A DNA stretch of 64,000 bases from Actinomyces oris (GTDB lineage Bacteria; Actinomycetota; Actinomycetes; Actinomycetales; Actinomycetaceae), in the NCBI RefSeq assembly GCF_001553935.1, contig NZ_CP014232.1, positions 1,488,001-1,552,000 on the forward strand, written 5' to 3'. The notes under the pieces were generated by a model. That model had not been told where the DNA came from, did no database searches, and was given only the letters and a program-made list of their open reading frames with translations. Below, piece after piece: positions 46,968 to 64,000 of the stretch. Numbering within the stretch: position 1 is the stretch's first letter; each line of letters opens with the position of its first letter. The position numbers and the translations under genes are program-made.

Positions 46968-47513
46968 TCAGACGACGGGGGCGACCTGGCGGGCCAGCTC
47001 GACGAGATGATCCAGGTTGGGGGCGATGTCCTCGGCGGCGGCACCCCACAGGCGCATGACCAGGTCCACCGGGACTGTGGGCAGGCCCGCCAGCCTCAGG
47101 ACGACGACGCCCTGGGTGGGGCCGTTGGACTCGTAGAAGGCGGAGAACCCCACCATGTCCGGGCCCGGCCGTAGACGCACCAGCTCGGCCTCGGGCAGGA
47201 GCGCGGCGACGAGATGACGCTGGGTGGCACGGCGCCCCTCCTTGGAGCCGTCATCCTTGGCGATCTCCAGACTGAGGTCGACGACGAAGGGCGGATGGGC
47301 GACGTCGTCGATATGCATGAGACGGGCGAAGCGCCCCTGGCGCTCCATGGCCTGCAACTCGTTGAGCAAGGACTCCAGCTCGGAGCGCCACTGCGGTCCG
47401 GTCACTCCCAGGTGGGCGCTGCGGTGCCTGGCCTCCTCCCGCGCCCACCCCGGAGGTGGGAAGGGCGGGATGATCACCCATCGCTGGGGATCAGGAGTGA
47501 CCGCGATCTGCAC
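46968..47513 (-). CDS. Conserved-looking hypothetical protein beside the kinase/FHA cluster
   Basis: This is a 181-residue soluble protein. The GTG at 47513 is chosen because GGAAGGA lies seven bases upstream; an ATG at 47537 would add eight residues. It begins 'MQIAVTPDPQRWVIIPPFPP' and contains 'WRSELESLLNELQAMERQGR' (helical) and a beta-rich region 'HPPFVVDLSLEIA' ... 'MVGFSAFYESNGPTQGVVVL'. The end is 'LVMRLWGAAAEDIAPNLDHL'. The shape, an N-terminal half followed by repeated strands and a helical end, is reminiscent of small secretion-system chaperone-like proteins, but I do not recognise the family. It is divergent from the RDD-FHA gene, with 67 bases between them, and so shares its regulatory region. 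Confidence 0.7.
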   Translation of the reverse strand: MQIAVTPDPQRWVIIPPFPPPGWAREEARHRSAHLGVTGPQWRSELESLLNELQAMERQGRFARLMHIDDVAHPPFVVDLSLEIAKDDGSKEGRRATQRHLVAALLPEAELVRLRPGPDMVGFSAFYESNGPTQGVVVLRLAGLPTVPVDLVMRLWGAAAEDIAPNLDHLVELARQVAPVV

Positions 47514-47580
47514 TGTGTGTTCCTTCCGAGACGTCATCCGACTGCGAGGCAGTGGGCTGGGCGCCTACCATGTCTGTCCT

Positions 47581-48324
47581 ATGAGGACCCGAGAGCGACA
47601 TACGACAATTATGCCTGCATCCGCACGCCGACGTGTGGTCCGCGTGCTGGTGGATGCGGGGCTCATCATCGCACTGTGTGCCGTCACGGAGCGCTGCTGT
47701 GGAATCTTATTCGCTGTCGGGGCGGTTGTGCTGCTTCTTGCTGTGATGACTGCCATGATGGCGATGACAGGCGCCACACCCGGTGGGCTGGTGACGGGGG
47801 TCCGGCTGCGGAGGGTTGCGGAGACGAATAGCCCTCCTGGACGCTCGGCGGTGATTTACGTCGCATTTTTAGGCCTGTCTTTGGTGGCAACCGCAGGGCT
47901 GGCCCCCTTGGTGTTGTGGATTCTCTCACTATGGCGTGCTGAACAGCGCACCTGGTTCGACCGACTGGCCGGAACGGTTCTTCTCAGTGCCAGGCCGACC
48001 TCGGTGTCAGCCTGCTCCCTGGTGGTTGAGGGCTCAGTAATCCCAGTTCTGGGGCCGATTGTTCTCGGGCGTCGGCCGGCCCCGATCGAGTCCCACCCCG
48101 ATGCGCAGCTCGTCGCGGTGCTCCGTTCGGAGGACTCCGTGTCCAAGACGCACGCTCTTTTCGTGCCCGCTTCGGATGGGGTTCTCGTCACAGATTTGGG
48201 TTCGACGAACGGCACCCACATCGAGGACGAGGAGGGGGTTCACCGACTCTCACCCGGCCGAGCGGAGTACGTGCACCGGGGACGGCAGGCATACTTGGGT
48301 GACGGTGTCTGTATCGTCCGTTGA
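47581..48324 (+). CDS. RDD membrane protein with C-terminal FHA domain (short)
   Basis: This is a 247-residue protein. The N-terminal half is an RDD-type membrane module with helices near residues 20-65 ('RVLVDAGLIIALCAVTERCC', 'LFAVGAVVLLLAVMTAMMAM') and 'GGLVTGVRLRRVAE', then another helix at about 95-115 and the closing 'RTWFDRLAGTVLL'. The C-terminal half is an FHA domain with 'GPIVLGRRPAPIE', 'EDSVSKTHALFVPASDGVLV' and 'DLGSTNGTHIED', that is the Gly-Arg, Ser-x-x-His and Thr-Asn-Gly signature residues that bind phosphothreonine. It should tether a phosphoprotein partner to the membrane. A TACCAT box nine bases before the ATG suggests a near-leaderless start. It ends nine bases before the next gene. 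Confidence 0.87.
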   Translation: MRTRERHTTIMPASARRRVVRVLVDAGLIIALCAVTERCCGILFAVGAVVLLLAVMTAMMAMTGATPGGLVTGVRLRRVAETNSPPGRSAVIYVAFLGLSLVATAGLAPLVLWILSLWRAEQRTWFDRLAGTVLLSARPTSVSACSLVVEGSVIPVLGPIVLGRRPAPIESHPDAQLVAVLRSEDSVSKTHALFVPASDGVLVTDLGSTNGTHIEDEEGVHRLSPGRAEYVHRGRQAYLGDGVCIVR

Positions 48325-48332
48325 GGAGAAAA

Positions 48333-50525
48333 ATGATGACAAACAGCCCGAACAGCAGCGCGAACAACGAGGTCTGGTGGACCGAGGGTTCGTGGACAGG
48401 CGTGGTCACGCCACGTGCTGTGATGATCCTGCCCCCGTCGGTGCCGCAGGACCTCACCGAGCGCCTGTGGCGGCTGCTGCGCAGTGAGGAGGCCTCGCTG
48501 ACGCGGGCCCTGGATGAGCTGGTGATGGGGATGGGCGGACGTCTGGGTGCGATCCCGGACTTCGTGCTCGCCGTCTCGGCGCCCGAGGACGTCTTCCACG
48601 TGGCGCTGCGCGGTGCCCCGCAGATGGAGGTCGACGGCAAGGCGCTCGACGCCTCCGCGGTCACCACCTGGTTCGAGACGACCGTGACCGCCCCCAACTC
48701 GGTCATCGTCAGCGCGCCCGACGGCGCCGGACAGGTGCGCCGCCCGGCGGTTGACGCCGTCGTGAGCACCGGTCACCTGGTGCTGCGCGGATCGGAGAAG
48801 TCGAGCGGGACCCCGTCCCCCAGCCGTGCATCGTCGAAGGGGTCCGGTGACTCCGACGACGATGACCCTGACCCGGCTGGTCCTGACTACTCCACCGCTT
48901 CTGCCGGCTCCGCCGGAACCCCCGCTGCTGCCGTGAGGACCTCTCGGTCCTCCCGTCGGGCATCGCGCCGCGCCTCGCGCCGTCAGTCCGCCTCGTCGGA
49001 ACGCTCGGAGCAGGACGACTCGTCTGAAGGGGCGCCTGCCGAGACCGCTGCTTCCGCTGACGTCGTCGACGACCTCATCGAGATCGCGCAGGACAACGCC
49101 GAGCAGCAGGCCCTCGATGGTGCCGAGCTCGCCGCGTCCCTCGAGGCCGCTGAGGCTGCTGCAGCCGACGAGTCCACCGCCGGTCAGTCCGAGGACTCCA
49201 CCGAGGACTCCGACGCCTCCGAGGAGCCTGCCCTGAGCGCCGACTCCGAGGGACCCGCTGACCTGCTGGCCGTCGTGGCCGGTATCTCCGAGGCCGCTGA
49301 GGTGACCGAGGTGACCGAGGTGACCGAGGTGACGCTGTCGCCCGAGCCGGTCGAGTCGGTCGAGGCCCCTGTTACGATCCCGGACGCCCAGACCCCTGAG
49401 GCTGCTGAGGTCGCCACCCAGTCCTCACCGGAGACCTCCGATGAGGATCTGCTGATCGCCCCCGTCTTCGATATCCCGGCCCTGCCGATCCCCTCCGCTC
49501 AGGAGGCAGAGGCCATGATCCCGCCCCCTCCGCCCCCGTCGAGCGAGGATCTTGAGGCTGCTGGTATCAAGGACGCTGCCACTGAGGTCACCGAGGTCGC
49601 CCAGACCCCGGCCGACTTCGTGCCCGTTGAGGCCGCCGAGGCCGCTGTGGTCGCGGAGGCCACTGCTGTTGCCGAGGCCGCCGCGCAGGCGCACGCCGAG
49701 GAAGAGCCCGTACGCTCCGGGGACCACGACGGTCAGACCATCAACGGCCTGCCCGAGGACCTCTCCCAGGAGCTGCGCGCCGAGCTGCTCAACCAGGGGC
49801 TCGGTCCCCTGGAGCCGAGCCAGTCGGCGGAGGCCGCCGAGCCGACCGGATCCGCGTCCGCGGATGCTGCAGTGGTCGAGTTCGTGCAGCCCTCCGGCGG
49901 CGAGCCGGCGACCGCGGAGCTCGGTCGTGGGGACCACGACGGACAGACCATCAACGGCCTGCCCGAGGACCTGGTCGGCGAGCTCGTCTCCCTCGTGGGC
50001 ACCGGGCCCTCCAGCCCGGCCACCCCGGTCTCGGCGAGCTCTCCCAGTGAACCCGACGCCATCCGGATCGTGCTGTCGGCGGTGTGCCCCCAGGGTCACC
50101 CCAACCCCACGAACTACACCGTATGCCGCGTCTGCGGAGCTGAGCTCAACCGTCCGGCCAAGTCGGTGGCCTGCCCCCCTCTGGGGCGAGTGGTCACCTC
50201 CGGCGGCGAGAGCATCGAGCTCAACCGTCCCCTCCTGGTGGGTCGCAACCCTGTGGCCGACGACATCACCAGCGTCGCGGAGGTCCCCCTCCGCCCGCTG
50301 ACCGTCGCCAGCCCCAACCAGCTCGTCTCCCGCAACCACATCCTCATCGACCTGGATGCGTGGAGCGTTCTGGCCCAGGACCTGGGCAACTGCAATGGCA
50401 CCGTTCTCAACCGCCAGAACGAGGCGCCCGTGCGCCTGTCCTCGGCGAACCCGGTGCTCCTGCGCAGCGGAGACGTCCTCGACCTCGGCGATGGTCAGAC
50501 CCTCGCCTTTGAGAACCTCCCCTGA
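48333..50525 (+). CDS. Zinc-ribbon FHA protein with duplicated DHDGQTI motif
   Basis: This is a 730-residue soluble protein, starting at 48333 after GAGGAG. Residues 1-150 form an ordered N-terminal domain ('WTEGSWTGVVTPRAVMILPP', 'LGAIPDFVLAVSAPEDVF'). Residues 155-580 are acidic and disordered, with 'EVTEVTEVTEV' repeats. Two copies of the 15-residue motif GDHDGQTINGLPEDL lie at 463-477 and 533-547. A zinc ribbon of type 'CPQGH' and 'CRVCGAEL' (about 584-604) precedes a C-terminal FHA domain (about 619-729) with 'LLVGRNPVADD', 'LVSRNHILID' and 'NCNGTVLNR'. The stop overlaps the start of the kinase gene. It is the likely adaptor and substrate of that kinase: the Thr in the duplicated motif would be a candidate phosphosite. 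That assignment is inference. Confidence 0.85.
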   Translation: MMTNSPNSSANNEVWWTEGSWTGVVTPRAVMILPPSVPQDLTERLWRLLRSEEASLTRALDELVMGMGGRLGAIPDFVLAVSAPEDVFHVALRGAPQMEVDGKALDASAVTTWFETTVTAPNSVIVSAPDGAGQVRRPAVDAVVSTGHLVLRGSEKSSGTPSPSRASSKGSGDSDDDDPDPAGPDYSTASAGSAGTPAAAVRTSRSSRRASRRASRRQSASSERSEQDDSSEGAPAETAASADVVDDLIEIAQDNAEQQALDGAELAASLEAAEAAAADESTAGQSEDSTEDSDASEEPALSADSEGPADLLAVVAGISEAAEVTEVTEVTEVTLSPEPVESVEAPVTIPDAQTPEAAEVATQSSPETSDEDLLIAPVFDIPALPIPSAQEAEAMIPPPPPPSSEDLEAAGIKDAATEVTEVAQTPADFVPVEAAEAAVVAEATAVAEAAAQAHAEEEPVRSGDHDGQTINGLPEDLSQELRAELLNQGLGPLEPSQSAEAAEPTGSASADAAVVEFVQPSGGEPATAELGRGDHDGQTINGLPEDLVGELVSLVGTGPSSPATPVSASSPSEPDAIRIVLSAVCPQGHPNPTNYTVCRVCGAELNRPAKSVACPPLGRVVTSGGESIELNRPLLVGRNPVADDITSVAEVPLRPLTVASPNQLVSRNHILIDLDAWSVLAQDLGNCNGTVLNRQNEAPVRLSSANPVLLRSGDVLDLGDGQTLAFENLP

Positions 50526-51991
50526 TGCTGGATCACAAGGGACCGCCTCCGGTCATCTCCGGGTTCACGTACCTGGAGAGACTCGGAGCGGGAGGCTACT
50601 CCACGGTCTACCTCTTCGAGCAGCACATGCCCCGCCGCGAGGTCGCGGTCAAGGTCATGAACGCTGACGTGGAGGACAAGACCGCCTCCCGCTTCGAGTC
50701 GGAGGCGAACCTCATGGCGCGGGTCTCCTCCCACCCGGCCATCCTGTCCATCTACGGTGCGGGCGTCTCCGCCGATGGCCACCCCTTCCTGGTCATGGAG
50801 TACTGCCCGCCGCCGCAGCTGGGCGCCATCTTGCGCCAGGGTCCCCTCAATGTCGCTGAGACCCTGTCCACGGCGATCCAGATCGCCGGAGCGGTGGAGA
50901 CCGCTCACCGGGCCGGCATCGTCCACCGGGACATCAAGCCCGCCAACATCCTGTTCACCACGTACCGTCGTCCGGTGCTCTCGGACTTCGGCATCTCCGC
51001 CATGAGCGGCCCGGAGGGGACCGAGGAGCTGCGGGGGATGAGTGTGCCCTGGGCCCCGCCCGAGCAGCTGGTCGGGATGCGCTCGGCCAATCCCGCCTCC
51101 GACATCTACTCCTTGGGGGCGACCACCTTCGCGATGCTCACGGGGCGCAGCCCCTTCGAGACCGACGGAATCCCGGATGTCTACGAGCTCTCCCGCCGTA
51201 TCGTCAAGGACCCCCTGCCTCCGCTGGGGCGCCAGGACGCCCCGCCGTCGTTGCACCGCGTGCTGTCGGTGGCGATGGACAAGAACCCGGACTCGCGCTA
51301 CCCGACGGCGCTGGCCTTCGCCCGCGCGCTTCAGCAGGTCCAGGCCGAGCTCGACCTGCCGATCACGACCGTTGACCTGTTCCAGGAGCCGGACAAGGCC
51401 GCGAAGTCGGCTCGGCGCCCCAGTCACGACGAGACCGACACCGCCACGAAGATGGGGGTGTTCAACCAGGTCGATGTCACCAGCGAGCACATCGCCATGC
51501 GGGTGGAGCCCGACGGCGAGGACAAGGGCTCGTCGTCGGACTCGGAGGCTGGTGAGACGGGCCGCCCGAACCGCATGCGGGGCGTGCTGACCGGTCTGCT
51601 GGTCGTGGCCATGGTGGCGGCCGTCGTCGCCGCGATCGTGGTCTCCCAGAACCAGGACAAGCAGAAGAAGCCCAACAATCCCATTGCCACGATCGCCCCG
51701 CAGCCCGACGCCAACCCCCTGCAGGCCTCAGTTCCCATGGTCGGCGATATTGTCGGCGAGGCGCAGGGCGACGGCACGGTGAAGTTCAGCTGGGGTGAGC
51801 CGGAGACGAACTGGTCCGGCAGCTACCTCTACCGGGTCAAGCTGCCCGATGAGGAGACCGAGCTGGACTCCGTGCGCACCAATGAGGTCGTCGTGGACGC
51901 CCAGCCGGCTCGCACCTGCCTCGAGGTCACCGCGGTGCGCGCGGACGGTAAGGCGTCCCCGGCCAAGACCGCCTGCGTCGACACTCCCTGA
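50525..51991 (+). CDS. Membrane Ser/Thr protein kinase with fibronectin-like ectodomain
   Basis: This is a 488-residue Hanks-type kinase. The Gly loop is 'LGAGGYSTVYLF' (about 20-31), the ATP Lys is in 'EVAVKVMN' (about 42), the catalytic loop is 'IVHRDIKPANILF' (about 134), the metal site is 'SDFGIS' (about 155) and the activation segment ends 'PWAPPEQLVG'. All catalytic residues are intact. A single membrane helix 'GVLTGLLVVAMVAAVVAAIV' lies at about 354-375. The outer part (about 400-485) is beta-rich ('DGTVKFSWGEPETNWSGSYL', 'ARTCLEVTAVRADGK') and resembles one fibronectin type III domain. PASTA repeats are absent, so it is not PknB. It resembles Pkb2 of bifidobacterial PFNA clusters. The start overlaps the FHA gene stop (TGATG). 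Confidence 0.92.
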   Translation: MLDHKGPPPVISGFTYLERLGAGGYSTVYLFEQHMPRREVAVKVMNADVEDKTASRFESEANLMARVSSHPAILSIYGAGVSADGHPFLVMEYCPPPQLGAILRQGPLNVAETLSTAIQIAGAVETAHRAGIVHRDIKPANILFTTYRRPVLSDFGISAMSGPEGTEELRGMSVPWAPPEQLVGMRSANPASDIYSLGATTFAMLTGRSPFETDGIPDVYELSRRIVKDPLPPLGRQDAPPSLHRVLSVAMDKNPDSRYPTALAFARALQQVQAELDLPITTVDLFQEPDKAAKSARRPSHDETDTATKMGVFNQVDVTSEHIAMRVEPDGEDKGSSSDSEAGETGRPNRMRGVLTGLLVVAMVAAVVAAIVVSQNQDKQKKPNNPIATIAPQPDANPLQASVPMVGDIVGEAQGDGTVKFSWGEPETNWSGSYLYRVKLPDEETELDSVRTNEVVVDAQPARTCLEVTAVRADGKASPAKTACVDTP

Positions 51992-52055
51992 GGTCGCGTC
52001 CCGAGGGGATCACGCCCGAGACGTCGTTGAGTGAGCGCCGTCGAGACCATAGCCA

Positions 52056-52093
52056 CTGGGGCCCGCACTCCTGTCCAGGAGTGCGGGCCCCAG
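52056..52093. terminator. Bidirectional terminator between the two halves of the cluster
   Basis: A perfect 17-bp stem (52056-52072 with 52077-52093) with a four-base loop separates the convergent kinase and large RDD-FHA genes. Confidence 0.85.
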
Positions 52094-52117
52094 CGCTTGA
52101 GGGAACCGGTGCGGGAC

Positions 52118-55100
52118 TCAGACGACCTCCACCTTGAAGGCGATGCGGCCGAAGAAGATCGTGCTGCCCTCCAGGGCGGACAGGGCCTTGTCCGGAACGG
52201 CCTCGACGGTGCGCCCATCGCGGTACTCCACCCGAGTCCCGTTGGTGGAGTGCAGGTCGGTGACCCACACTCCGTCCAGCAGCGGGAAGATCGCCGCGTG
52301 CGTCTTGGACACCGAGCGGGTGGGATCGTCAAGAGCGACGCGCTCCGCCCCGGGGTAGGCCGAGATGTTGTCGGGGTCGCGGCCCACCACCGTGGGCTCG
52401 TGGATGAGGATCGGGTTGCCGCCCAGCAGCGGGACGAGACGTACCGACAGGGCCGGAGCGGCCGAGGAGGCCGACGGGAGCGACGGCGTGGCAGTCTGGG
52501 CGCTCGCGTCAGGAACCGGGGTGAGCGGGGACCGGGAGGCACCTGCAGCGGGGGAGGAGACCGGCGTGGCCGCCTCCGGCACGCTGCCTGCACTGCGCCT
52601 GGACACACCCGTGCGGGGCTGCTCCGGCGCCTGAACGGAGGCGGAGCGCTCGTGACGAACGGTGCCGGCATCCGCGGCGCGTGCATCGCTGCGGGACTCA
52701 CTGGGGACGGCGCGTCCATCCGTGGGCGAGGGGATTCCCGGCCCCGCGAAACGGTGTGAGGCGTGAGGCCGGCGCGAGGGGGTCTCCTCCGGGACGGCCG
52801 CACTCGTCGCACTGCCGGCGGAGTTCCGAGCATGGCTGCGGTGGCTGCGCACGGTCGGGTGTGCCGTGCCCTCCGAGGCGGCCGGGACACCACCGGGCAC
52901 GGTGGCGGGGTTGGTCAGGTCCATCGGGGAGGCGTGCTGCGCAGGCGCCGAAACCGTCGTCGGCTGCTGGGGCAGGCCGTCGTCGGAGACGACGACCCCT
53001 TCCGGCAGGGAGTCCACCGTGGCGGCATCAACCGAGGTGGGAACCGAGGACCAGGGCACCGAGTCGATGAGGGCCTGCGTGTTGCGGTCCCCCGAGGGCA
53101 GGATGCTGGAGGTGTCGAAGGTGTGCGCGACCTCCGGGACGGGGCCGGCTCCGGCAGCGAAGCGCTGCCGCTCGGTGGTGAAGAGGCTCTCGCGACGAGG
53201 AACGCCGGGCTGTGACACCGACTCTCGCTGATCCTCGGTAGGTGCAGCAGACGAGCCGGAGGCCTTCTTGCCGGTGTGACCGGGCTGAATCCTCCAGCGC
53301 TGGGCGTGGGCGTGTCGTGGTTCCATCGTTTGTGATGTTACGGGTTCTGTGGCTTGTGAGCGCGGGACTTGTGGTGTGGAAGTCGCATCGTGCGACGTGG
53401 AGGACTGGGATGCCTCGGAATCATCAGCAGTTTTGGAGGATTCCGCTGAGGGCGTCGTCGCTTCGGACTGCTGCTGATCGGCCGGGTGCTCAGATGAGGG
53501 CGGCGCATGGGTCGAGGGTTTCTCGGCCTCGTCACCCCGGCTGTCGGTGTCATCCGTGGGCTGAGACGGTGCGTCCTCCACAACGTCGAGCGTAGCGGTT
53601 TCGGTGTCCATCGGCGAGGGCTGCTGCGACGCGGCGTCGTCGGAGCTCGATGATGCGGTTGCCTGCGGCTCCTCGACGTCCGCCTCGGACGGCTCGTTGG
53701 ATGGTTCCTCGACGTCGGCAGCCGGTTCCTCGACCGGTTCCTCGACGTCGGCAGCCGGTTCATCGACCGGTTCCTCGACGTCGGCAGCCGGTTCATCGAC
53801 CGGTTCCTCGACCGGTTCCTCGGCGTGCTCGTCAGCCGCCTCCTGGGCTTCCTCAGCTGGTTCCTCGGCTTCCTCGGCCGGTGCCGAGCTGATCGGCTCT
53901 GATGATGCCGCTGGTGCCGTGTCGTCCGCTGTCGGCTCTGTGGCCTCGGTGGGGGTGGCCGGTGCCGGCTCCGTGTCCTCCTGAGTGGGGGAAGTCGCCG
54001 CCTCGGTGTCCTCCAGGGCCTCGGGGGCGGTTGCGACCGCGTCCTCGTCGACCGGCCCCGTCGGGGGTCTCAAGGACTTCTCCACCGCCGGCCGGGACTC
54101 GGCCCGGGCTGCAGCCATCGCAGCGGATGCCTGAGGGTCCATAGGGGTGGCGGAGGCGACGGCAACGGCCTGGGCGTCGGTCTCCACGATCGCCGGACCG
54201 GCGGAGGCCGCCGACTTCGCAGAGGCCGACGATGAGACGGTCGCCGCCTTGGTGGCCTTGGCCGCGCTCTGAGACGTGGCTGTGGTCGCCGCGGCAGCTG
54301 TGCTCAGGGCCTGTTCCTCGGCGGAGGTTTCTGAGGCCGTTGATGCGTAGCCGCTCGACGAGCCAGTACTCAAGGCACGACCAGCATGGCGTGCGGGTCG
54401 CCCCGGGCGGGCCGGGCGGGGCCGACGGATCGAGGAGGAGACCGGATCCGACGTCGTCGGGTGCGCGCTCCTGCCGGAGGACTCGGTGGCGCCGGCCTCG
54501 GTGCTGCTCTGGGGACCCGCCGTGGTGGCCTGCTGCGCCTCCTGTGCCGCCTCCTGACCTGAGCGTGCGCGTGTCGAGCCCGGACGAGGGCCGCGTTTCC
54601 TGGCCTTCTTGCCCCGAGCCGCCTTCCCAGCCTTCTTCTCAGCCTTGCGCTCAGCCCGCTCGGAGTGCTGAGTGCGGGAGGCGGACTCGTCTGGTGCCTC
54701 AGCGGCCGGAGAGGAGGGGGCCGCGGCGGGCTCCTGGCTCGTGGTGCTCTGCCCGCCGGAAGGAGACTCGGAAGAGGACAGGGAGGCGCGCCTGGCAGCA
54801 TCCCACGCCTCACCGATGTCCTGGGCGGAGGATGCCTCCGGTGCCTCGGCCCCGGCATCGGCCCGGGGGCTGGAGGAGTCGGGCTCGGTGGCGGGGCGCC
54901 CCTGCGGCTCGGTCGCCGAGGAGACGGGCCGCGCAGGACGCTTCGTTCTGCGGGCGCTGAGCAGCGCCATCCCGGAGAGCTTGTCGTGCCAGCCGCGCCC
55001 CTCGGGGTCGGCGGCCGCCGTACGCATGAGCGCGATGGTGCCCAGGCCGAGCGTGGTGATGCTGACGGCCAGGATGAGATCGGCGTGGAGGAAGGAACCC

Positions 55101-55570
55101 AGAGGTGAGGGGGTCTGGTGGCGGGCCCCCAGCATGCGGATTCTGAGCAGCCTCCCGCCCAGGGACCAGCCGGTGGCGGCGATGGTGAGCCAGCGCGCCC
55201 CGACGACCAGCCCGAAGGCGATGAGTCCACTGGTCAGCACCGGGCGGCCGCCCACCCGCCAGATGACGGCGGTCAGGCCCCCCACCAGAAGTGAGCCGAT
55301 GACGAGATCGATGACCCCGGCGACCACGCGTGCCCGCACCGGGGCCGGGGGGAGGCGGCGGTGCGCAGAGGAGGTCGTGTGCGAGGACGTCCGGGCCGCA
55401 CCTGGCTCCGAGCCCCGGGAGCCGTCGCCGTGCGGGGAATCGGGGGTGCTCGGCGCCGTGCCGTACGGACTGACGACGTCGGTGCGCGTCGCGTCATCGG
55501 ACCGACGGGAGGACGCCGGTGGGCCCGCAGCGGTCGAAGCGCTGCTACGGGCGTCAGCAGTGATCGTCAT
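52118..55570 (-). CDS. Large RDD-FHA membrane protein with long acidic disordered linker
   Basis: This is a 1,150-residue protein that starts after AGGAGG. Residues 70-200 form an RDD membrane module ('VRARVVAGVIDLVIGSLLVG', 'GWSLGGRLLRIRMLG', 'GRGWHDKLSGMALLSARR'). About 800 residues of low-complexity Ala/Ser/Glu/Pro follow, including a 'VEEPVDEPAAD' tandem repeat and basic 'KAGKAARGKKARKRGPR'. The C-terminal FHA domain (about 1040-1150) has 'PTVVGRDPDNIS', 'RSVSKTHAAIFPLLDG' and 'DLHSTNGTRVEYRDG'. It is an enlarged version of the 47581 gene with the same domain order. It is the last gene of the leftward operon and overlaps the transglutaminase-like gene by four bases. It probably acts as a membrane-tethered phosphothreonine receptor. 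Confidence 0.85.
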   Translation of the reverse strand: MTITADARSSASTAAGPPASSRRSDDATRTDVVSPYGTAPSTPDSPHGDGSRGSEPGAARTSSHTTSSAHRRLPPAPVRARVVAGVIDLVIGSLLVGGLTAVIWRVGGRPVLTSGLIAFGLVVGARWLTIAATGWSLGGRLLRIRMLGARHQTPSPLGSFLHADLILAVSITTLGLGTIALMRTAAADPEGRGWHDKLSGMALLSARRTKRPARPVSSATEPQGRPATEPDSSSPRADAGAEAPEASSAQDIGEAWDAARRASLSSSESPSGGQSTTSQEPAAAPSSPAAEAPDESASRTQHSERAERKAEKKAGKAARGKKARKRGPRPGSTRARSGQEAAQEAQQATTAGPQSSTEAGATESSGRSAHPTTSDPVSSSIRRPRPARPGRPARHAGRALSTGSSSGYASTASETSAEEQALSTAAAATTATSQSAAKATKAATVSSSASAKSAASAGPAIVETDAQAVAVASATPMDPQASAAMAAARAESRPAVEKSLRPPTGPVDEDAVATAPEALEDTEAATSPTQEDTEPAPATPTEATEPTADDTAPAASSEPISSAPAEEAEEPAEEAQEAADEHAEEPVEEPVDEPAADVEEPVDEPAADVEEPVEEPAADVEEPSNEPSEADVEEPQATASSSSDDAASQQPSPMDTETATLDVVEDAPSQPTDDTDSRGDEAEKPSTHAPPSSEHPADQQQSEATTPSAESSKTADDSEASQSSTSHDATSTPQVPRSQATEPVTSQTMEPRHAHAQRWRIQPGHTGKKASGSSAAPTEDQRESVSQPGVPRRESLFTTERQRFAAGAGPVPEVAHTFDTSSILPSGDRNTQALIDSVPWSSVPTSVDAATVDSLPEGVVVSDDGLPQQPTTVSAPAQHASPMDLTNPATVPGGVPAASEGTAHPTVRSHRSHARNSAGSATSAAVPEETPSRRPHASHRFAGPGIPSPTDGRAVPSESRSDARAADAGTVRHERSASVQAPEQPRTGVSRRSAGSVPEAATPVSSPAAGASRSPLTPVPDASAQTATPSLPSASSAAPALSVRLVPLLGGNPILIHEPTVVGRDPDNISAYPGAERVALDDPTRSVSKTHAAIFPLLDGVWVTDLHSTNGTRVEYRDGRTVEAVPDKALSALEGSTIFFGRIAFKVEVV
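53711..53809. repeat. Three tandem 33-bp repeats within the large RDD-FHA gene
   Basis: Units at 53711-53743, 53744-53776 and 53777-53809 are identical except for one base in the first. Each encodes an 11-residue block 'VEEPVDEPAAD' (first copy with E for D). Partial units flank them. Confidence 0.9.
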
Positions 55571-58149
55571 GACCGCAACCTCCTGGGGGGACGTGACCGC
55601 CTGCCGGCGGGATGGACGAGGGAGCGCGGGGACAGACGGGCCCATACCCGCCCCAGGCGCGAGCGCTCCGCCCCCATGCAGCGGACGATCGCATCTGAGG
55701 ATTCCCACAACTCCCCTAGAGCGTACGATGGCGGCTCCCCGGAGCTGAAGACCTGGGTGTCAACTGCTCCGGCGAATCGAGGCAGATCGACCTGCGGGAA
55801 GTGAGGAGCCAGCTGCGCAGCCGCCTCCCTCCGAGTGGCTCCCCACCCGGGGTAGCGTCCCAGGTCGCGGGCCCGGTCGAGGATCTCCTCCCAGGCCCCC
55901 AGGGCCTTACCGACACCGGTGCGTGCGCGCCGGCGGCGGCGGCGCCAGGCCTTCCACCCCAGGACCGAGCCTACGATCATCGTGATCGCCAGGATGGAAC
56001 CTCCGACGGCGATGACCGCGGTCGGCAGACCGCCCTTGTCCTTGTCCTGGGGGTCGTCGCGCTGCGGGTCCTCGTAGTTGGGGGGCAGCTGGGCCGGGTC
56101 CTCGTTGGGCAGCGGGGGCTGGAGGACGTTGGGCTCGGGGTTGGAGACCTTCTGGGTGGTCTGCTGCTGGGGAACCTGGTCGCGGTCCGGCGTGACGTCG
56201 AAGGACACCCAGCCCAGCCCCTCGAAGGGGATCTCCACCCAGGCCTTGACGTCCTCGCCGGTGACGGTCTTGGCATCGCCGTCGGTGGCCGGGTCGAAGC
56301 CCATGACGACGCGGGCCGGGATGTTGAGTGAGCGGCACATGAGCATCATGAGCACCGAGTACTGCTCGTCGTCGCCGATGAGGGAGTCGGCCTCCACCAT
56401 GGAGGCGATGCGGGCGGCCCCGTGCCCGGGTTGGGAGGGGCTCTTGGTGCCGTCGGAGTAGTAGCTCGTGCGCAGGCGCTGCTGGAGCGCCCGGATCTGA
56501 GCGATGGGGTTGGACTCGGCTCCGACGATCTCCTTGGCCAGGGAGGCCACCGACGACGGTACCTGCTCGACCGGTCCCAGTGAGGTCTGCGCCAGGGAGG
56601 CCTTGTTGAGGGAGGCCTCGGAGGGTGCGGTGTAGGGGGCGACCCGCTCGGTGAGAACGTCGCCCGAGGCCAGGCCGCTGGTGGCGATCCCGGTGGAGGA
56701 GAACTTGTCGTAGTACATGCCCTCGCGCAGGGCCGATTGACGTGGCCCGGAGGACTCGATGCGGATCGTCTCGGGCATGGTGGGCACCCAGGGGAAGCTG
56801 TAGTCCTCGATGGTCAGGGAGGAGGTCTGCTTGCGCCCGTCGAGCCGGCTGGCCGTCAGCTGGGTCTTGTCACCGATGCGCTCGAAGCGCGACTGCCCGT
56901 TCTCGTTCTGGCCGATGTGGGCCGACAGCCCGTCGTAGGAGTCCAGGGCGGCGATGCGGATGCGTCCGCCTGAGGGCAGGTTGATGGGCTTCATGAGCCG
57001 GGTGTGGGCCTTGTCGGTCTCCAGGGTGCGCACCAGGGACAGTGGGCTGGCGTACTCGGTCACGTCCAGCGGCGGCTGGAACAGGTCGCGCACCACCGTC
57101 CGGGAGGTGGGGACGGTGGGGGTGAGGACCATGGCGGCCAGGGAGGTGACCAGGAGCAGCACGGCGGCGATGACCGTCCCGCGCAGGGCCGCCCGACCCA
57201 GGTCCCCGGTGGAGCGGGCGCTCGTGGTGCCCGAGGTCGTCGAGAAGGAGTTCAGGTCCAGGGCCTCGACGACGTGACTGCGCCGCTGCCGCAGGGAACC
57301 GCAGGTCCACAGCGCCAGGATCCCGACGACGAACAGGACGCCCAGCACGGTGGGGCGCACGGCCTCCTGCCCACCCCAGCCGATGCCGACGGCGGGCAGG
57401 CAGGCCAGGATCAGGCCAGCCAGGACCTCACGGCCCGCCAGGATGAGGCGGGTCGCCAGCGCTGAGACCACCAGCCCGGTCAACCAGGGCAGCACCGTCA
57501 TGCCGCTGAAGGAGCTCAGCGGCATCGGCACGGTCAGGGCGTCTCGCCATACGGTGATCGTGGAGCCCAGCACCGTCTTGATCGCCGTCGTCCCGGAGCC
57601 GACATCGGTCAGCAGCCACGGGGCCACCAGGACGTGGACCAGTGCCAGGGCCGCCATGCTCGGCAGCACGGACAGGCGCAGGCGCGAGCAGACCAACGAG
57701 GTCAGGGCGCCAAAGAGTGCGCCGTAGCCGACGGCCAGGCAGCCTGCCACGGAGGCGAAGACCGGCAGGAAAGGGACCGCACCGATGGCGAGGATCCCGG
57801 CCATGAGGACCAGCTCGAGGGTCGCGGCCGCCAGCGTGGGCGGCTTGGTGCCGCGCCGGGGAGGCAGGAAGCGGCGGGCGGAGAGGGCCGGCCGGGAGGG
57901 GCGCGACAGGAGCGGGCCGGCGCCGGTGATCGAGCGGGCCCGACGCGTCGTCTCGTTGCTGTAGAGGCTGCGCGTGCGCGACGACGTCGCCGTCGACCAG
58001 GAGACGGACTCGTCCGAGCCGCTCAAGGGCGCGGCGGTGACCTGTGAGGGGGCCTCGGCCGGAGAGGACGCCCCGGCCGGCGAGGCGCCCGAGATCGGGG
58101 AGCCCGCGGTGCGGGGGGAGGCGGTGGTGAGGGTCGTCGTGGGGGTCAT
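55567..58149 (-). CDS. Transglutaminase-like membrane protein with apparent loss of catalytic residues
   Basis: This is an 860-residue protein. A 105-residue Ser/Ala/Arg-rich cytoplasmic tail leads to six or seven membrane helices (about 108-270 and 325-345). An extracellular domain of some 350 residues follows, with a TgpA/transglutaminase core near 570-650. There 'LIGDDEQYSVLMMLMCRSLN' aligns with the usual 'GDCDEFA' segment, so the nucleophile Cys is an Asp. 'EDVKAWVEI' replaces the usual 'H-x-W', so the His is a Lys. 'VSFDVTPDRD' keeps the final Asp. A last membrane helix (about 718-740) leads to a cytoplasmic tail. It sits between DUF58 and RDD-FHA genes with four-base overlaps on both sides. 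It is likely a structural or binding pseudo-enzyme. Confidence 0.88.
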   Translation of the reverse strand: MTPTTTLTTASPRTAGSPISGASPAGASSPAEAPSQVTAAPLSGSDESVSWSTATSSRTRSLYSNETTRRARSITGAGPLLSRPSRPALSARRFLPPRRGTKPPTLAAATLELVLMAGILAIGAVPFLPVFASVAGCLAVGYGALFGALTSLVCSRLRLSVLPSMAALALVHVLVAPWLLTDVGSGTTAIKTVLGSTITVWRDALTVPMPLSSFSGMTVLPWLTGLVVSALATRLILAGREVLAGLILACLPAVGIGWGGQEAVRPTVLGVLFVVGILALWTCGSLRQRRSHVVEALDLNSFSTTSGTTSARSTGDLGRAALRGTVIAAVLLLVTSLAAMVLTPTVPTSRTVVRDLFQPPLDVTEYASPLSLVRTLETDKAHTRLMKPINLPSGGRIRIAALDSYDGLSAHIGQNENGQSRFERIGDKTQLTASRLDGRKQTSSLTIEDYSFPWVPTMPETIRIESSGPRQSALREGMYYDKFSSTGIATSGLASGDVLTERVAPYTAPSEASLNKASLAQTSLGPVEQVPSSVASLAKEIVGAESNPIAQIRALQQRLRTSYYSDGTKSPSQPGHGAARIASMVEADSLIGDDEQYSVLMMLMCRSLNIPARVVMGFDPATDGDAKTVTGEDVKAWVEIPFEGLGWVSFDVTPDRDQVPQQQTTQKVSNPEPNVLQPPLPNEDPAQLPPNYEDPQRDDPQDKDKGGLPTAVIAVGGSILAITMIVGSVLGWKAWRRRRRRARTGVGKALGAWEEILDRARDLGRYPGWGATRREAAAQLAPHFPQVDLPRFAGAVDTQVFSSGEPPSYALGELWESSDAIVRCMGAERSRLGRVWARLSPRSLVHPAGRRSRPPRRLRS

Positions 58150-59534
58150 AGTGCTCGCCTCAGGGCGGTGGGAAGCTGCTCAAGACGGTCCATGTCCACG
58201 ACCGGCATGGTTCCGGCGTGGTGGCGCGACAGGCCGTGCTGGCCCGCGCGCAGGGCAACGGTCACCATGGGCAGCGGGGCGAAGCCGCGAGCCCGGGCCA
58301 GCACGGCGCGGTCCACCTGTTGGCCGGTGACGAGGACGACGATAGAGGCATCGGGGTGCGCCGTGCAGGCGTGTCGCACCAGGAGGTCACAGCCGAAGTC
58401 GTCCTCACCGGTGCTCAGCAGGCAGGACGTGTCCAGCATCCGCAGGGCGGAGGAGGTGGGCAGGGCCCCGATCTGGGTGATGAAGCGGACCTCGCGCCCG
58501 TCCTGGATCGCGTCCATGGCCAGTGAGCAGGCGATGGACACCGCGGTCTCGAAGTCCTCCTCGCCGGCATAGTCCTCCTGGCGGGTGGACAGCAGGACGA
58601 GCAGGCTGGAACGGCGGGTCTCCTCGAACTGACGCACCATGAGCCGGCCGGTGCGGGCCGTGGTGCGCCAGTGGACGTTGCGCCGGTCATCGCCGGGGAC
58701 GTACTCGCGCAGGGCGTGGAAGGCGACGTCGGAGCTGGACAGGTCCTGTGTGACGGCGCCCTCGATGTCCCGCAGGACACCGTGCAGGACCGTGCCCAGG
58801 CGCACGGTGCGCGGGTGGATGTGGATATGCTGCGGGGTGCTTAGGGAGCGCTCGCGCTGAAGCAGCCCCACCGGATCGCGCTGGACCGCCAGGACCGGGC
58901 CGACGGTGACGATGCCGCGGCGCTGCGTGGGCAGGACGAAGCCGCGCTCGTGGACGGCCCCGGGGGTCAGGGTCGGCACGACGAAGACGGCGCGCCCCGG
59001 CCCCACCGGCATCTCCATGCGCGAGGGAAGCAGCGGCCGGGTGCGGGGGTTGGTGACGGTCAGGCGGATGAGGGCATGGTCGCCCACGGTGACGCGGGGC
59101 TCGAGGAGGTTGTGGTTGACCGAGTAGCCGCGGCGGGGGATGAGCCACAGCCAGGCGCTCACCGCGACGATGCCGACGGCGGCCGCGGCGCTCCACGCCT
59201 CCTGCCAGCCCATGACGGCCCCGGTCAGTCCGCACGCCGCCAGCAGCACCAGGCTGCCCCATCCGATCGGGGTCACGGTGTGCATCAGCCAGCGCAGTGG
59301 CCGCAGCGCCGCCGCGGCCAGTGCGGTCAGTGCGGTCAGCCGGGACTGCGAGGGCCTGGCGCTCAGGGCCTCGCTCGCGGAGGTCGACGACGCGGCCGAC
59401 GACGCGGACTGCGCGGACGCCGGCGTCCCCGAGGATGTCGGGGCCGCGGCGGAGGAGGTGGATGCGCCGGACCGGCCCGCCGAGCCCGGACGGGCCTGGC
59501 GGGCAGGTTTCTTTGACGTCGTCTGAGGCGTCAT
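58146..59534 (-). CDS. DUF58 protein
   Basis: This is a 462-residue protein. The N-terminus is Ser/Ala-rich and disordered for 70 residues. Two membrane helices (about 98-145, 'IGWGSLVLLAACGLTGAVM' and 'SAAAAVGIVAVSAWLWLIP') are followed by a beta-rich region 'LLEPRVTVGDHALIRLTVTN' and then the DUF58 signature 'YVPGDDRRNVHWRTTARTG' (about 276-294) with 'LMVRQFEETRRSSLLVLL'. The remainder is a von Willebrand A-like fold lacking a perfect metal site. DUF58 proteins act with MoxR ATPases and TgpA-like proteins in many bacteria, probably in assembly or quality control of envelope complexes. It starts six bases after the MoxR stop and overlaps the next gene by four bases. Confidence 0.9.
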   Translation of the reverse strand: MTPQTTSKKPARQARPGSAGRSGASTSSAAAPTSSGTPASAQSASSAASSTSASEALSARPSQSRLTALTALAAAALRPLRWLMHTVTPIGWGSLVLLAACGLTGAVMGWQEAWSAAAAVGIVAVSAWLWLIPRRGYSVNHNLLEPRVTVGDHALIRLTVTNPRTRPLLPSRMEMPVGPGRAVFVVPTLTPGAVHERGFVLPTQRRGIVTVGPVLAVQRDPVGLLQRERSLSTPQHIHIHPRTVRLGTVLHGVLRDIEGAVTQDLSSSDVAFHALREYVPGDDRRNVHWRTTARTGRLMVRQFEETRRSSLLVLLSTRQEDYAGEEDFETAVSIACSLAMDAIQDGREVRFITQIGALPTSSALRMLDTSCLLSTGEDDFGCDLLVRHACTAHPDASIVVLVTGQQVDRAVLARARGFAPLPMVTVALRAGQHGLSRHHAGTMPVVDMDRLEQLPTALRRAL

Positions 59535-59539
59535 GCGGT

Positions 59540-60505
<966 letters not shown>

Positions 60506-60585
60506 GGAATCAATGATCCTTCGGGTGGAGAGAGGTGGGTGTGTGACTTGTTGCGTACTGGGCATCGATCCGGTTAATGAACCGG

Positions 60586-63500
60586 TTATTGCTGGGTGCA
60601 GGTGATGGTCTGGTCCCAGTTCGGCGTCCTGTGCGGGAACGTGTGTCGGGCGTAGCCGTTCTTGTCGAGAGCGATCTCCTCCTCGTTCCAGGCAGGCTGC
60701 CAGTTCCAGGTGTCCCAGTACCAGTAGCCGCAGGACACGGTGCTGTTGGGGTTTCCGGAGATGTCGAAGACCATCTGGTAGCAGGTGCCCCAGGGGCCGA
60801 AGGGGTGGCACCTCTGCGTGTAGTCCACGTAGAACTGCTGCTCAGTGCCGACCGGGTAGGCCTGCTTCTTGTCAGCGTCATCATCGTCGTCATCGTTGTC
60901 GTGCTTGGACGGCCGGGTGACGGTGTCGCAGCCCCACTCGGAGGTACCGGCGTTGGTCCGGGCCCGCACGCACCAGGTGAGCGACTCACCGCGCTTGAGC
61001 TTGCCGTCATAGGTGTCACCGATCTCGACGTTCTCCACGGACTTGCCGCCGTCGTCGGTCTGCTCGTACTCGGCGCCGGCGCCGCTGTTGGCCCCGGGGT
61101 TCCAGGAGCAGGAGACCTTCTTCTGCTTCTTGCCGGTGAGCTCACAGCTGACCGAGGGAGCCGACGGCGGGCCGTAGGGCGCCACCGGCGAGGAGGCGAC
61201 GACGTCGGAGTACTGGCCGCCGCCGTTGGTGCGGGCGTAGACGGTGTAGGCATGCCCGTCAGTCAGTCCCCGGATGGTCGAGGAGCTGGTCCAGGTGACC
61301 TGATCGACGGAGTACTCCACCGTCAGCTCGCCCACGCTCCAGCCGTTGCCGGCGCGGGGTGAGGCACTCACGGACAGCTCGCCGCTGTTGCCGGTGGCCT
61401 TGACGGCCGGGGTCGACGGCGTTAGCGGGGTCGGCTTGTAGGCGTAGCTGGCCTGGCCCGAGGTCTTGGTGCCGTGACCGTTGTCGGCCTCGACCCAGAA
61501 GGTCCAGGTCCCGCGCGAGACCGAGACCGTGGTGGAGGTGGCTCCTCCCACGTTCTTGGAGTCGCTGGTGTGCCCGTTGGAGTAGTGCAGCGTGTAGCTC
61601 ACGGGGCTGCCGTTGCCGTTAGCGGCTTGCCAGCCGATGGTGACCGTGTCCCCGTTGGGGGTGATGACGGGAGTCCCGGGGGTGCCGGGCTCGCCGTAGG
61701 GCGTCACCGAGTTGGACGGGGAGGACCACTCCGAGACCGTCCCCTGGCTGGACCTGGAGCGCACCTGAGCGGTGTAGGCGCGTCCCGGGGCGACGTCGAA
61801 GGAGGCCGAGCTCCCGGAGACGCCCGTCTGCACGCTGCCGTCCGACAGGCGCACGTCATAGGTCGTCGTGCCCCCGAAGGGGTCGTCCACCTCGGTCCAG
61901 GTGGCGGTGACCTTGCCCGAGCCGGCTGTCAGTGTTGGCGCAGCCGGGGTCTTAGCGGTGGCGTTGTGCTGGTAGGACACCGTCGCGGCCTCGGAGTCGC
62001 CGTACTTGTTGGTGGCCACGACCTGGATGCTGTAGCTCTGACCGGGCGTCAGGCCGCTGATGAGGCAGTTCGAGGTCGAGCAGGACTGCTCGGTGCCGTT
62101 GACACTGACCTTGTAGCCGGTGATGGGGGAGCCGTTGGCGGAGCCGTCGGCCCAGGACACGCGTGCCGAGTCGGCGCCCACGGGGGCCACGCTCACCCCG
62201 GAGGGGGCGGCGGGGGCCACCCCACCGACCTGCACGGTGATGGTGCCGGTGACGGCCCGGGACTCCGAGCCGGTGGAGTCCAGCACCTTGTACTGCGCGG
62301 TGATGGTGCCGTGGAACCCGCTGTTGGGGGTGATCGTCACGGTGGTTCCCGAGGCGCTGATCGAGCCCTGGCCGGAGGTGATCGTCGGGGTGCCGGACAG
62401 GGTGATCGGCTTGTCCGGGAAGGGGTTGCTCACCGCCTTGGACACGTCGGTGCTGACCGCCTCGCCGTTGCGGGACTCCAGGTTGATCGGGGCGGTGGTC
62501 ATGCGGGGCTTGTTGGAGGCGCTGACCCGCACAGGCAGGGAGGCGCTCACCGGCGGGTTGACGCCGTCGGAGACCGTGATCGGGATGGAGCCCGTGGTGC
62601 CCTCGGCGGTCTTGTCGGAGGCCTTGACCGACAGCGTCGAGCCGCTCAGGGAGATCTCGAATCCCGCGGGGGCGGGACCGGCCTGGAAGGAGAGCTTGTC
62701 ACTCGGGTCGGGGTCGGTGGCCATGGCTGCCAGATTGGCCGTCACGGCCCCCTCGCCGGGGGCCACCGTTACCTCGGTGGGGGTGAAGGTCGGCGGCCGG
62801 TTCGTCGAGGACTCCACGATGATCGGCAGCGTGAGCGTCGAGCTCAGGGCGTCCGAACCGGTGCCGTCGGCCACGGTGAAGGTCACCGAGGTCTGCCCGG
62901 TGAAGCCCGAGTCGGGGGTGAAGGACAGCGTGGACCCGCCCGAGGCGACCTTGGCGTCCTTGGTGCCCTTGGCCATGTGGATGGAGGAGGTGTCCGAGAT
63001 GACGGGCTTGGTGCCCTCTCGGGTGAGGATGTAGGAGGACAGGCTGATGTCGGTGGTCTTGTCCGCCAGCACCCGGGCGGGCACGGCCGAGGGGTTGATG
63101 CGGGGCCGCAGGGCCGAGCGGGCCGGCACCACGACGACGGCGTGGCCGGTCAGCCCGTCGGCGTCGGTGATCGTGTAGAGCACGAGCCGCTGGGTCTCGC
63201 CCACCGTGAGGCTCAGGGAGTCCTTGCCCACCTCGACGTCGGGGTCGGAGGAGGACAGCTTGAGGTCCCACGGCGAGCCGTCGGTGTCCTTGTCGTTGTC
63301 CAGGACCGGGACGGTGACCTTGCCATTGGCGTCGACCTGGTCGACGGTGACGTAGTCGTCCACGCCCACCGGGTTGGCCAGGGGTGCGTTGTTCGAGACC
63401 TGGACGGTGACGGTGCCGGTGTCGGTGCCGCCGCGTCCGTCGGAGACGGTGTAGGTGACCGAGTGGTTGCCCTCCTTCTCCGGCAGGTCGAGCACCAGGC

Positions 63501-64000
63501 GGCCGGCGCGGGTGGACACGCCCAGGGAGGGGTCGGAGGAGACCGGGTCGCCCTCCAGGGACAGGCTGTCGCCGTCAGTGTCCAGGTCGTTGGACAGCAC
63601 GTCCACGGCCACGGTGCGTCCGGGCTTGGCCACGACCAGGTCGTCGGTGGCCACCGGGGCCACGTTGAGGGGCGAGGCCTGGGCGACGCCCACCCGGACC
63701 GTACCGGTGGCCTGGGCCCCGAAGCGGTCCTCGACGACGTAGGTGAAGGTGTCGGTGCCGGTGGCCCCCTCGGAGGGCGTGTAGGTCAGCCACGAGGAGT
63801 TGATCTCCACCGAGCCCAAGGAGGGGGCCTGGTTGAGGCCCACGAGGCTCACCGAGTCGCCGTCGGGATCGATGCCGTCCAGCGGCACGGTGATGTTCGT
63901 GGCCGAGCCGGCCAGGGTGCGGGCCTCCAGGTTGCGCGGTGAGGGCGCGGAGTTGTGCTCGGCGTCCTGGGCGCGCACCTCTACGGTGAGAATGCCCGAG
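60586..64000 (-). CDS. Giant Ig-like/fibronectin III surface protein, C-terminal part (runs off right edge)
   Basis: This is at least 1,137 residues, and the frame is still open at 64000. From the N-terminal side, about six bacterial Ig/cadherin-like repeats are visible ('DPDGDSVSLVGLNQAPSLGS', 'PVATDDLVVAKPGRTVAVDV', 'GRGGTDTGTVTVQV'). Four or five fibronectin type III domains follow ('APSGVSVAPVGADSARVSWA', 'TPGTPVITPNGDTVTIGWQA'). A Trp/Cys-rich C-terminal module 'SCGYWYWDTWNWQPAWNEEE' ends the chain. No LPxTG or membrane anchor is seen at the C-terminus, so anchoring must be N-terminal. It starts the operon with MoxR and DUF58 and corresponds to Fn3 of PFNA clusters. A role in adhesion or in sensing surface contacts is inferred. 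Confidence 0.88.
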   Translation of the reverse strand, partial: SGILTVEVRAQDAEHNSAPSPRNLEARTLAGSATNITVPLDGIDPDGDSVSLVGLNQAPSLGSVEINSSWLTYTPSEGATGTDTFTYVVEDRFGAQATGTVRVGVAQASPLNVAPVATDDLVVAKPGRTVAVDVLSNDLDTDGDSLSLEGDPVSSDPSLGVSTRAGRLVLDLPEKEGNHSVTYTVSDGRGGTDTGTVTVQVSNNAPLANPVGVDDYVTVDQVDANGKVTVPVLDNDKDTDGSPWDLKLSSSDPDVEVGKDSLSLTVGETQRLVLYTITDADGLTGHAVVVVPARSALRPRINPSAVPARVLADKTTDISLSSYILTREGTKPVISDTSSIHMAKGTKDAKVASGGSTLSFTPDSGFTGQTSVTFTVADGTGSDALSSTLTLPIIVESSTNRPPTFTPTEVTVAPGEGAVTANLAAMATDPDPSDKLSFQAGPAPAGFEISLSGSTLSVKASDKTAEGTTGSIPITVSDGVNPPVSASLPVRVSASNKPRMTTAPINLESRNGEAVSTDVSKAVSNPFPDKPITLSGTPTITSGQGSISASGTTVTITPNSGFHGTITAQYKVLDSTGSESRAVTGTITVQVGGVAPAAPSGVSVAPVGADSARVSWADGSANGSPITGYKVSVNGTEQSCSTSNCLISGLTPGQSYSIQVVATNKYGDSEAATVSYQHNATAKTPAAPTLTAGSGKVTATWTEVDDPFGGTTTYDVRLSDGSVQTGVSGSSASFDVAPGRAYTAQVRSRSSQGTVSEWSSPSNSVTPYGEPGTPGTPVITPNGDTVTIGWQAANGNGSPVSYTLHYSNGHTSDSKNVGGATSTTVSVSRGTWTFWVEADNGHGTKTSGQASYAYKPTPLTPSTPAVKATGNSGELSVSASPRAGNGWSVGELTVEYSVDQVTWTSSSTIRGLTDGHAYTVYARTNGGGQYSDVVASSPVAPYGPPSAPSVSCELTGKKQKKVSCSWNPGANSGAGAEYEQTDDGGKSVENVEIGDTYDGKLKRGESLTWCVRARTNAGTSEWGCDTVTRPSKHDNDDDDDDADKKQAYPVGTEQQFYVDYTQRCHPFGPWGTCYQMVFDISGNPNSTVSCGYWYWDTWNWQPAWNEEEIALDKNGYARHTFPHRTPNWDQTITCTQQ

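Follow-up and report, generated by a model that had tools for sequence, protein, structure and literature searches.

We analysed a gene cluster of Actinomyces oris that combines a Ser/Thr kinase and three FHA proteins with a MoxR ATPase, a DUF58 protein, a TgpA-like transglutaminase-fold protein and a giant Fn3 protein. The cluster lies at the right-hand side of a stretch of 64,000 nucleotides (the window; positions 1488001-1552000 of a 3.04 Mb single-contig genome), the right end of which cuts it. Genes were called from lists of open reading frames and Pfam matches, with start codons chosen among alternatives, and this placed the eight cluster genes in two convergent blocks. The plus-strand block consists of RDD-FHA1 (47581..48324), a membrane protein of 247 amino acids (aa) with RDD and C-terminal FHA domains over the Pfam cut-off, FHA2 (48333..50525; 730 aa) and a transmembrane Ser/Thr kinase (50525..51991; 488 aa; Pkinase, 133.6 bits). 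FHA2 carries a long low-complexity middle, a Cys-rich ribbon-like stretch judged by eye and a C-terminal FHA domain (Pfam FHA). Read from right to left, the minus-strand block encodes the giant Fn3 protein (60586..64000; Big_9 and fn3 matches), of which the C-terminal 1137 aa fall within the window, the MoxR AAA+ ATPase (59540..60505; 321 aa; AAA_3, 207 bits, and AAA_lid_2), the DUF58 protein (58146..59534; 462 aa; 46.9 bits), the polytopic TgpA-like protein with an outer transglutaminase-fold domain (55567..58149; 860 aa; Transglut_core) and RDD-FHA3 (52118..55570), a membrane protein of 1150 aa with a very long linker and a C-terminal FHA domain (Pfam RDD and FHA). Neighbouring genes overlap by 1-4 bases or are 5-8 bases apart, except for 80 bases between the Fn3 and MoxR genes; such close spacing would suit co-transcription within a block. 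Every gene named in the initial annotation of this DNA is present, each with a Pfam match that exceeds the curated threshold, and the convergent split with RDD-FHA proteins on both sides is likewise confirmed.

The initial annotation had also proposed to look for the N-terminus of the Fn3 protein to the right. Extension of the sequence completed the gene, which starts at the window-equivalent position 66876 and encodes 2096 aa. By Pfam and modelling, the protein is built of a membrane helix, an N-terminal β-propeller, 11 Big_9 stretches, two fn3 stretches and a C-terminal region. The propeller corresponds to the conserved region behind the membrane helix and was predicted by AlphaFold2 on 32 sequences with a predicted local distance difference test (pLDDT) score of 90.9; its best matches in the PDB are YVTN and BamB propellers. 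A profile of this domain matched 28 of the 59 genomes of the order, and 37 of the 148 genomes of the class at E 0.001 or better (12 above 200 bits, the others weak or partial). The word "propeller" does not occur in PMC12607495, the one paper searched for it. Two genomes of family f5 (G005 and G041) contain a second propeller/Fn3 gene (loci L215, and L226/L216 with L049), and no MoxR was found within 20 kb of the one in G005.

The TgpA-like protein has a sole sequence match in the PDB, TgpA of Pseudomonas (6g49; E 0.00025). In this alignment, GDDEQY stands opposite GFCAHY and DVKAW opposite DAHAW; therefore, D594 and K635 occupy the places of the TgpA Cys and His. From the Cys-His-Asp triad of active TgpA-kind transglutaminases, the protein thus keeps the Asp, and both Cys and His are replaced. 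The predicted outer domain (pLDDT 89.3) nevertheless resembles that of Pseudomonas aeruginosa TgpA (6g49, 6g4h), its best fold match in the PDB. The loss of the Cys extends to all 92 readable Fn3-linked loci: 45/45 in one set, of which 43 show the propeller and two (L048, L094) lie at contig ends, and 47/47 further ones. Its place is taken by D, E, A, S, G or P, and since no nucleophile is conserved there, we rejected the idea of transglutaminase activity via another residue. Within the genus, the His is lost in the convergent type and kept in the one-strand type (see below), which retains both His and Asp, as do some other families.

In unlinked loci, Cys and His are kept in 35 of 38 readable cases. 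The three exceptions are L098 from Nocardioides potassii and two loci from Chloroflexota with Ser at the Cys place (L117, L165). L098 combines a Cys-less TgpA with a MoxR inside the Fn3 clade, and no propeller was found in its fetched flank. These counts exclude loci with no readable transglutaminase core (L124, L135, L145, L149, L163) and, in the second motif set, further pieces of L178, L182, L186 and L202 and the sole piece of L212; L137 (Bacillota) was not classed as linked: it keeps the Cys, and the FN3 protein lying 7 kb from it is unrelated. Among 96 homologues, Cys stands at the place in P0095, P0096 and P0039, the last seemingly aligned via a different transglutaminase domain; P0038, P0078 and P0080 have no readable core. 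Loss of the DUF58 metal site was tried as a second hallmark and dropped, with Asp in 23/46 linked rows and a mix of D and N in the unlinked ones.

Judging from these motifs, the transglutaminase-fold domain is probably a scaffold or binding domain. Erythrocyte protein 4.2, which has a scaffold role, likewise carries an inactive transglutaminase fold, but its fold match is weak and its context unrelated. This protein (EPB42) serves as a precedent for an inactive transglutaminase (PMC10318531). The corresponding tgm product of bifidobacteria has been treated as a putative transglutaminase or cysteine protease (PMC6803598, PMC8430577), but with the Cys absent, cross-linking of proteins no longer offers itself as a ready explanation for tgm.

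The outer part of the kinase is a single Fn3-like domain, with two Cys that are conserved in 61 and 60 of 62 kinases. Comparing profiles, we obtained values for this domain of 85 % and 78 % against the two Fn3 domains of the giant protein, 1.5 % against Big_9 and 0.1 % against the C-terminus. Against the NCBIfam model of PknB/Stk1 PASTA kinases (NF033483), the kinase reached 203 bits, below the cut-off of 450. Kinases from two loci bereft of the outer genes (L173, L177) have neither an outer domain nor a membrane helix.

To place the cluster, we compared its MoxR with 59 genomes of the order, fetched 40 regions and annotated these using profiles that had been built up from the genes of the window and from adjoining genes. 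MoxR similarity fell into two levels, high and low, and the succession Fn3-MoxR-DUF58-TgpA was common among the 40 regions. In nine loci from five families it is followed on the same strand by RDD/FHA, PP2C, FHA2 and kinase genes. A scan of named genomes, of which the best 80 of 585 confirmed stretches were evaluated, yielded 15 Fn3-linked loci, and six of them carry this same gene set, so that all eight gene kinds occur together in 15 loci. Among these best 80, linked loci come from Arthrobacter, Pseudarthrobacter, Microbacterium, Brachybacterium and Agromyces, among others, and short Fn3 proteins were found in Wenjunlia, Actinoplanes and Thermomonospora; no Bifidobacterium-titled locus was included. 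Arthrobacter, Pseudarthrobacter, Microbacterium, Agromyces and the like live mainly in soil or on plants, and Brachybacterium epidermidis, going by its name, may be a skin isolate. Outside the genus, the order survey found linked clusters in 26 genomes (31 loci), with a kinase or FHA gene in 27 of the 31 (kinase 20, FHA 26); among the 15 loci of the named-genome scan the figure was 12 (kinase 12, FHA 9). These counts are lower bounds, as flanks were limited. The initial annotation had held that a functional link to the outer genes would be weaker if other genera generally lacked the kinase or FHA genes; such a general loss is not seen. In a MoxR tree that took in the window and 13 of 26 convergent loci, the Fn3-linked MoxRs form one clade that includes L098 and contains the A. 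oris MoxR.

The initial annotation had read the cluster as the gene set of the bifidobacterial PFNA operon, and this holds for the core genes and the kinship. The operon of Bifidobacterium comprises pkb2, fn3, aaa-atp, duf58 and tgm, to which some species add prpC, fha and a gene for a hypothetical protein. The A. oris cluster shares with it the five linked core genes (kinase, fn3, MoxR, DUF58 and transglutaminase-like), an Fn3 protein of ~2000 aa, two fn3 domains near its end and accessory FHA genes. It differs in its two convergent blocks, the absence of PP2C, and the presence of two RDD-FHA proteins plus FHA2. The published cluster has a fixed gene order and a single direction (PMC8430577), i.e. 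pkb2-fn3-aaa-duf58-tgm, whereas in A. oris the kinase and FHA2 lie on the other strand at the far end. Since order and direction were tested and do not agree, we regard the cluster as a relative of PFNA and not as the PFNA operon as published. It does display the features of a wider family as we define it, namely the propeller, a MoxR of the Fn3 clade and a Cys-less TgpA-like protein. The loci of family f3 share with it the propeller, the Cys-less motif and a MoxR in the same clade; f3 is taken as bifidobacterial on one ground only, namely that its loci are the best matches (50, 44 and 37 %) to the TgpA of a named Bifidobacterium (P0090). On sequence grounds, the cluster belongs to a wider actinomycete Fn3-MoxR-DUF58-pseudotransglutaminase family that includes the bifidobacterial PFNA operon. 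The operon or its genes have been called exclusive to bifidobacteria (PMC10688814, PMC6803598, PMC8430577), and in one of these papers a eukaryotic origin was suggested for the FN3 domains. We find relatives in Actinomyces and many other genera. Therapeutic ideas rest on the bifidobacteria-only view; a spread over many actinomycete families shifts the question to cell-envelope biology and offers more host organisms for experiments.

More distant systems resemble parts of the cluster. Fn3-less operons (e.g. L079, L083, L113, L159) have the same MoxR-DUF58-TgpA order, but keep the catalytic Cys and His, have a MoxR outside the Fn3 clade and show no propeller in the fetched flank. The mycobacterial moxR operon, whose resemblance to PFNA is remarked on in PMC12067865, also has MoxR beside DUF58 (moxR1) and differs, by the description given there, in a vWA protein following DUF58. 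Our search of open-licence papers retrieved no account of the cluster in Actinomyces or of its dead transglutaminase. In our judgement, the strongest new points are the wide distribution, the propeller, the absence of the Cys from all linked loci that could be read, and the evidence that MoxR is shared.

Within the genus, the 40 loci fetched comprise 26 of the convergent type, eight of a one-strand type, three of a third type and three reduced ones; a fourth reduced locus is L047. With 26 of these loci arranged in the same convergent way, the layout is not due to chance, and what the initial annotation had taken for an expanded version of the cluster in this genome is instead a conserved paralogue type of the genus. 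A PP2C gene is present in all eight one-strand loci and in none of the 26 convergent ones, relatives of FHA2 occur in all locus types tested, and the third type (L203, L204, L205) carries Fn3, MoxR, DUF58, TgpA and kinase genes. Quick trees of TgpA and of the kinase, with 24 rows each (the window and 23 convergent loci; L182, L186 and L202 were left out), united the convergent type in a single clade with support of 100 and 99, respectively. The convergent layout therefore seems to have arisen once and then been kept. RDD-FHA1 is found in 23 of the 26 convergent loci; the three without it (L196, L198, L199) split first in the TgpA tree, and RDD-FHA1 may have been added later.

The absence of PP2C from the cluster itself, already noted in the initial annotation, held on extension: reading by eye, rather than by profile scan, revealed none in the 19 kb to the right, where sugar-transferase-like and other genes lie. 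A whole-genome PP2C_2 search gave only two matches, at 1241 kb and 792 kb, neither at the cluster. The former stands beside two kinase and two FHA genes, which we take to be the usual pknB/pstP locus. The latter stands beside an FHA gene and belongs to a second MoxR system (L012, 783-799 kb) of PP2C, FHA protein, LmeA, MoxR, DUF58 and VWA. The PP2C of this second system shares 39-46 % identity with most of the cluster-type PP2Cs it was compared with and 36 % with that at 1241 kb, and could serve the kinase of the cluster. The genome also contains a remnant of the one-strand type (2315180-2318435, minus strand; L014 6180-9435) with a 121-aa Fn3 stub, a 542-aa FHA2 and a 422-aa kinase, the latter terminating shortly after its membrane helix, without an outer domain. 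The remnant FHA2 shares 71-73 % identity with its counterparts in the intact one-strand clusters of G101 and G096, and G077 carries genes of the same sizes and order. Because of this identity and this match, the A. oris lineage appears to have once possessed the PP2C-bearing type and to have lost most of it, including the PP2C. Another decayed copy (Fn3 stub-RDD/FHA-PP2C; L225) is present in G088 at 3425-3440 kb.

MoxR behaves differently from its neighbours. MoxR of the cluster kind was found in 40 of 49 genus genomes and the propeller in 41; if G078 is counted by its MoxR pieces at contig ends, 41 genomes have both and eight have neither. The MoxR locus was covered for 33 of the 40 MoxR-bearing genomes (31 fetched, G019 and the window); the seven not covered (G059, G075, G077, G079, G086, G091, G095) are all close to the window. 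In the six genomes with both types fetched, the MoxR copies are 80-100 % identical, compared with 35-53 % for DUF58, TgpA and the kinase, and G089 holds two copies with identical protein and 99 % DNA identity. G101 (80 %) shows no excess, as the mean between genomes across types is likewise 80 %. With 23 convergent loci and the window, a MoxR tree holding the convergent type together was marginally rejected (approximately unbiased test, p 0.045) and occurred in 0 % of 200 bootstrap trees. A MoxR tree alone is unsuitable for paralogue history, and the TgpA and kinase trees were used for that purpose. Moreover, four genomes (G019, G064, G073, G098) have an Fn3-DUF58-TgpA locus without MoxR, and their only MoxR at E 1e-95 sits in a reduced locus left over from the other type; the G064 contig stops short of the kinase. 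G076 pairs a convergent cluster without MoxR with a one-strand cluster with MoxR. A single MoxR may thus serve both clusters in trans, and these five natural clusters without their own MoxR, each with one elsewhere, permit a direct genetic test of such sharing. The reduced loci L047, L173, L176 and L177 had at first looked like genome-wide losses of the outer genes, which proved wrong, as all four genomes contain a second Fn3-DUF58-TgpA locus without MoxR.

The gene content, the predicted folds, the Cys loss, the paralogue clades and a MoxR that one locus lacks while the other has it, all read from sequence, would fit a phosphorylation-controlled MoxR/DUF58 motor that acts on a surface complex, as a conserved actinomycete envelope system; we give this an even chance. 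From them we infer complex formation, the direction of signalling, the target of MoxR and its sharing in trans as follows. The MoxR ATPase would work, via DUF58, on a membrane complex of the TgpA-like protein and the propeller/Ig/Fn3 protein, with the latter reaching outward and the nucleophile-less transglutaminase-fold domain acting as scaffold or binding part. The Fn3-like outer domain of the kinase would read the state of the outer complex and lead to phosphorylation of threonines inside, which the membrane RDD-FHA proteins and FHA2 could bind to recruit or gate the motor. PP2C would reset this state in many relatives, and one MoxR could serve both one-strand and convergent clusters. In favour of this reading, kinases at loci that lost the outer genes (L173, L177 and the A. 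oris remnant) have no outer domain either. The linked gene set across the order, the joint presence or absence of MoxR and propeller in the genus, and the reported phosphorylation of MoxR by Pkb2 in B. longum (PMC8430577) also speak for it. We hold it only tentatively, as somewhat short of an even chance, that PFNA is one branch of a general actinomycete envelope machine built from a propeller/Ig/Fn3 protein and a dead-transglutaminase scaffold, whose paralogues are run by one interchangeable MoxR that is kept alike by gene conversion or left single after reciprocal loss.

Several observations weigh against the motor reading. In seven of 46 linked loci outside the genus, a few of which lie at the end of a contig, the flank that was fetched contains no kinase and no FHA gene, and the third type of the genus (three genomes) has no FHA nearby. 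Seven kinases of one subclade lack the outer domain in spite of an intact cluster (L061, L065, L066, L075, L076, L077, L118). The concerted evolution of MoxR draws on few genomes and a marginal tree test. Finally, the propeller is absent from 31/59 genomes of the order and 8/49 of the genus, so that the system is dispensable.

Some of this would suit a pure maturation machine, in which MoxR, DUF58 and the TgpA-like protein assist in folding or exporting the Fn3 protein, while a general regulator made up of the kinase and FHA proteins just lies next to them. The seven loci without kinase and FHA are in keeping with it, and so are remnants in which signalling genes persist and the outer half has gone (L014, L224, L225, L173, L176, L177, L047), from which it follows that the two halves can part. 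The other 39 of the 46 linked loci, in which a kinase or FHA gene accompanies the outer genes, and the resemblance of the kinase outer domain to the Fn3 domains of its partner speak against such a purely maturational role, which we consider doubtful. If, on the other hand, the TgpA-like protein were still an enzyme acting through other residues, it could cross-link or cleave the Fn3 protein; the preserved fold with TgpA as best match, and the His and Asp retained in the one-strand type and elsewhere, leave this a slim prospect in view of the six different residues at the Cys place and the additional loss of His in the convergent type.

Turning to the ligand side, Actinomyces is host-associated, and the closest named homologues of the TgpA-like protein come from this genus. 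Both points agree with the host-communication system proposed for bifidobacteria, where the Fn3 protein would be an adhesin and cytokine receptor and the kinase would signal host contact; for bifidobacteria, it has been published that an FN3 fragment binds TNF-alpha, along with adhesion and with induction by this cytokine (PMC8430577, PMC6803598, PMC10688814). Since linked clusters are also present in Arthrobacter, Pseudarthrobacter, Microbacterium, Agromyces and others, and the order survey revealed them in 26 genomes beyond the genus, we judge this explanation unlikely for the cluster. As relatives occur in many other actinomycetes, a dialogue with the host immune system was probably not the original role; a host-specific ligand is unlikely as the original function since relatives span the order, and any external ligand is a guess. 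To see in the cluster a MoxR-vWA conflict or defence system would be far-fetched. MoxR does score 51 bits against Pfam bpMoxR, and the Fn3 protein has a propeller, but AAA_3 scores far higher (207 bits) and the Pfam scan detected no vWA or effector domain, so the combination of MoxR, vWA and propeller typical of conflict systems is incomplete. PADLOC reported generic kinase likeness, weak ATPase likeness and nothing for the other six proteins; unsupported by PADLOC, the defence reading was rejected.

Between the convergent stops lies a perfect inverted repeat with a 17-bp stem (52056..52093; no strand assigned), whose predicted fold has a z-score of -5.3 and was equalled by 0 of 200 shuffles. 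A search revealed no terminator-like site with a T-run; the repeat is a possible two-way terminator. Divergent from RDD-FHA1 is a small conserved gene on the minus strand (46968..47537), with which the region marked in the initial annotation begins and which has no Pfam match and no assigned family. It was present in 5/5 convergent-type loci tested (58-98 % identity) and in 0/16 other loci of the same test, and may or may not belong to the system. To the right of the cluster, past glycosyltransferase-like genes, reading by eye further showed two large, similar, secreted-looking proteins (L004 11788-13344 and 14624-17692).

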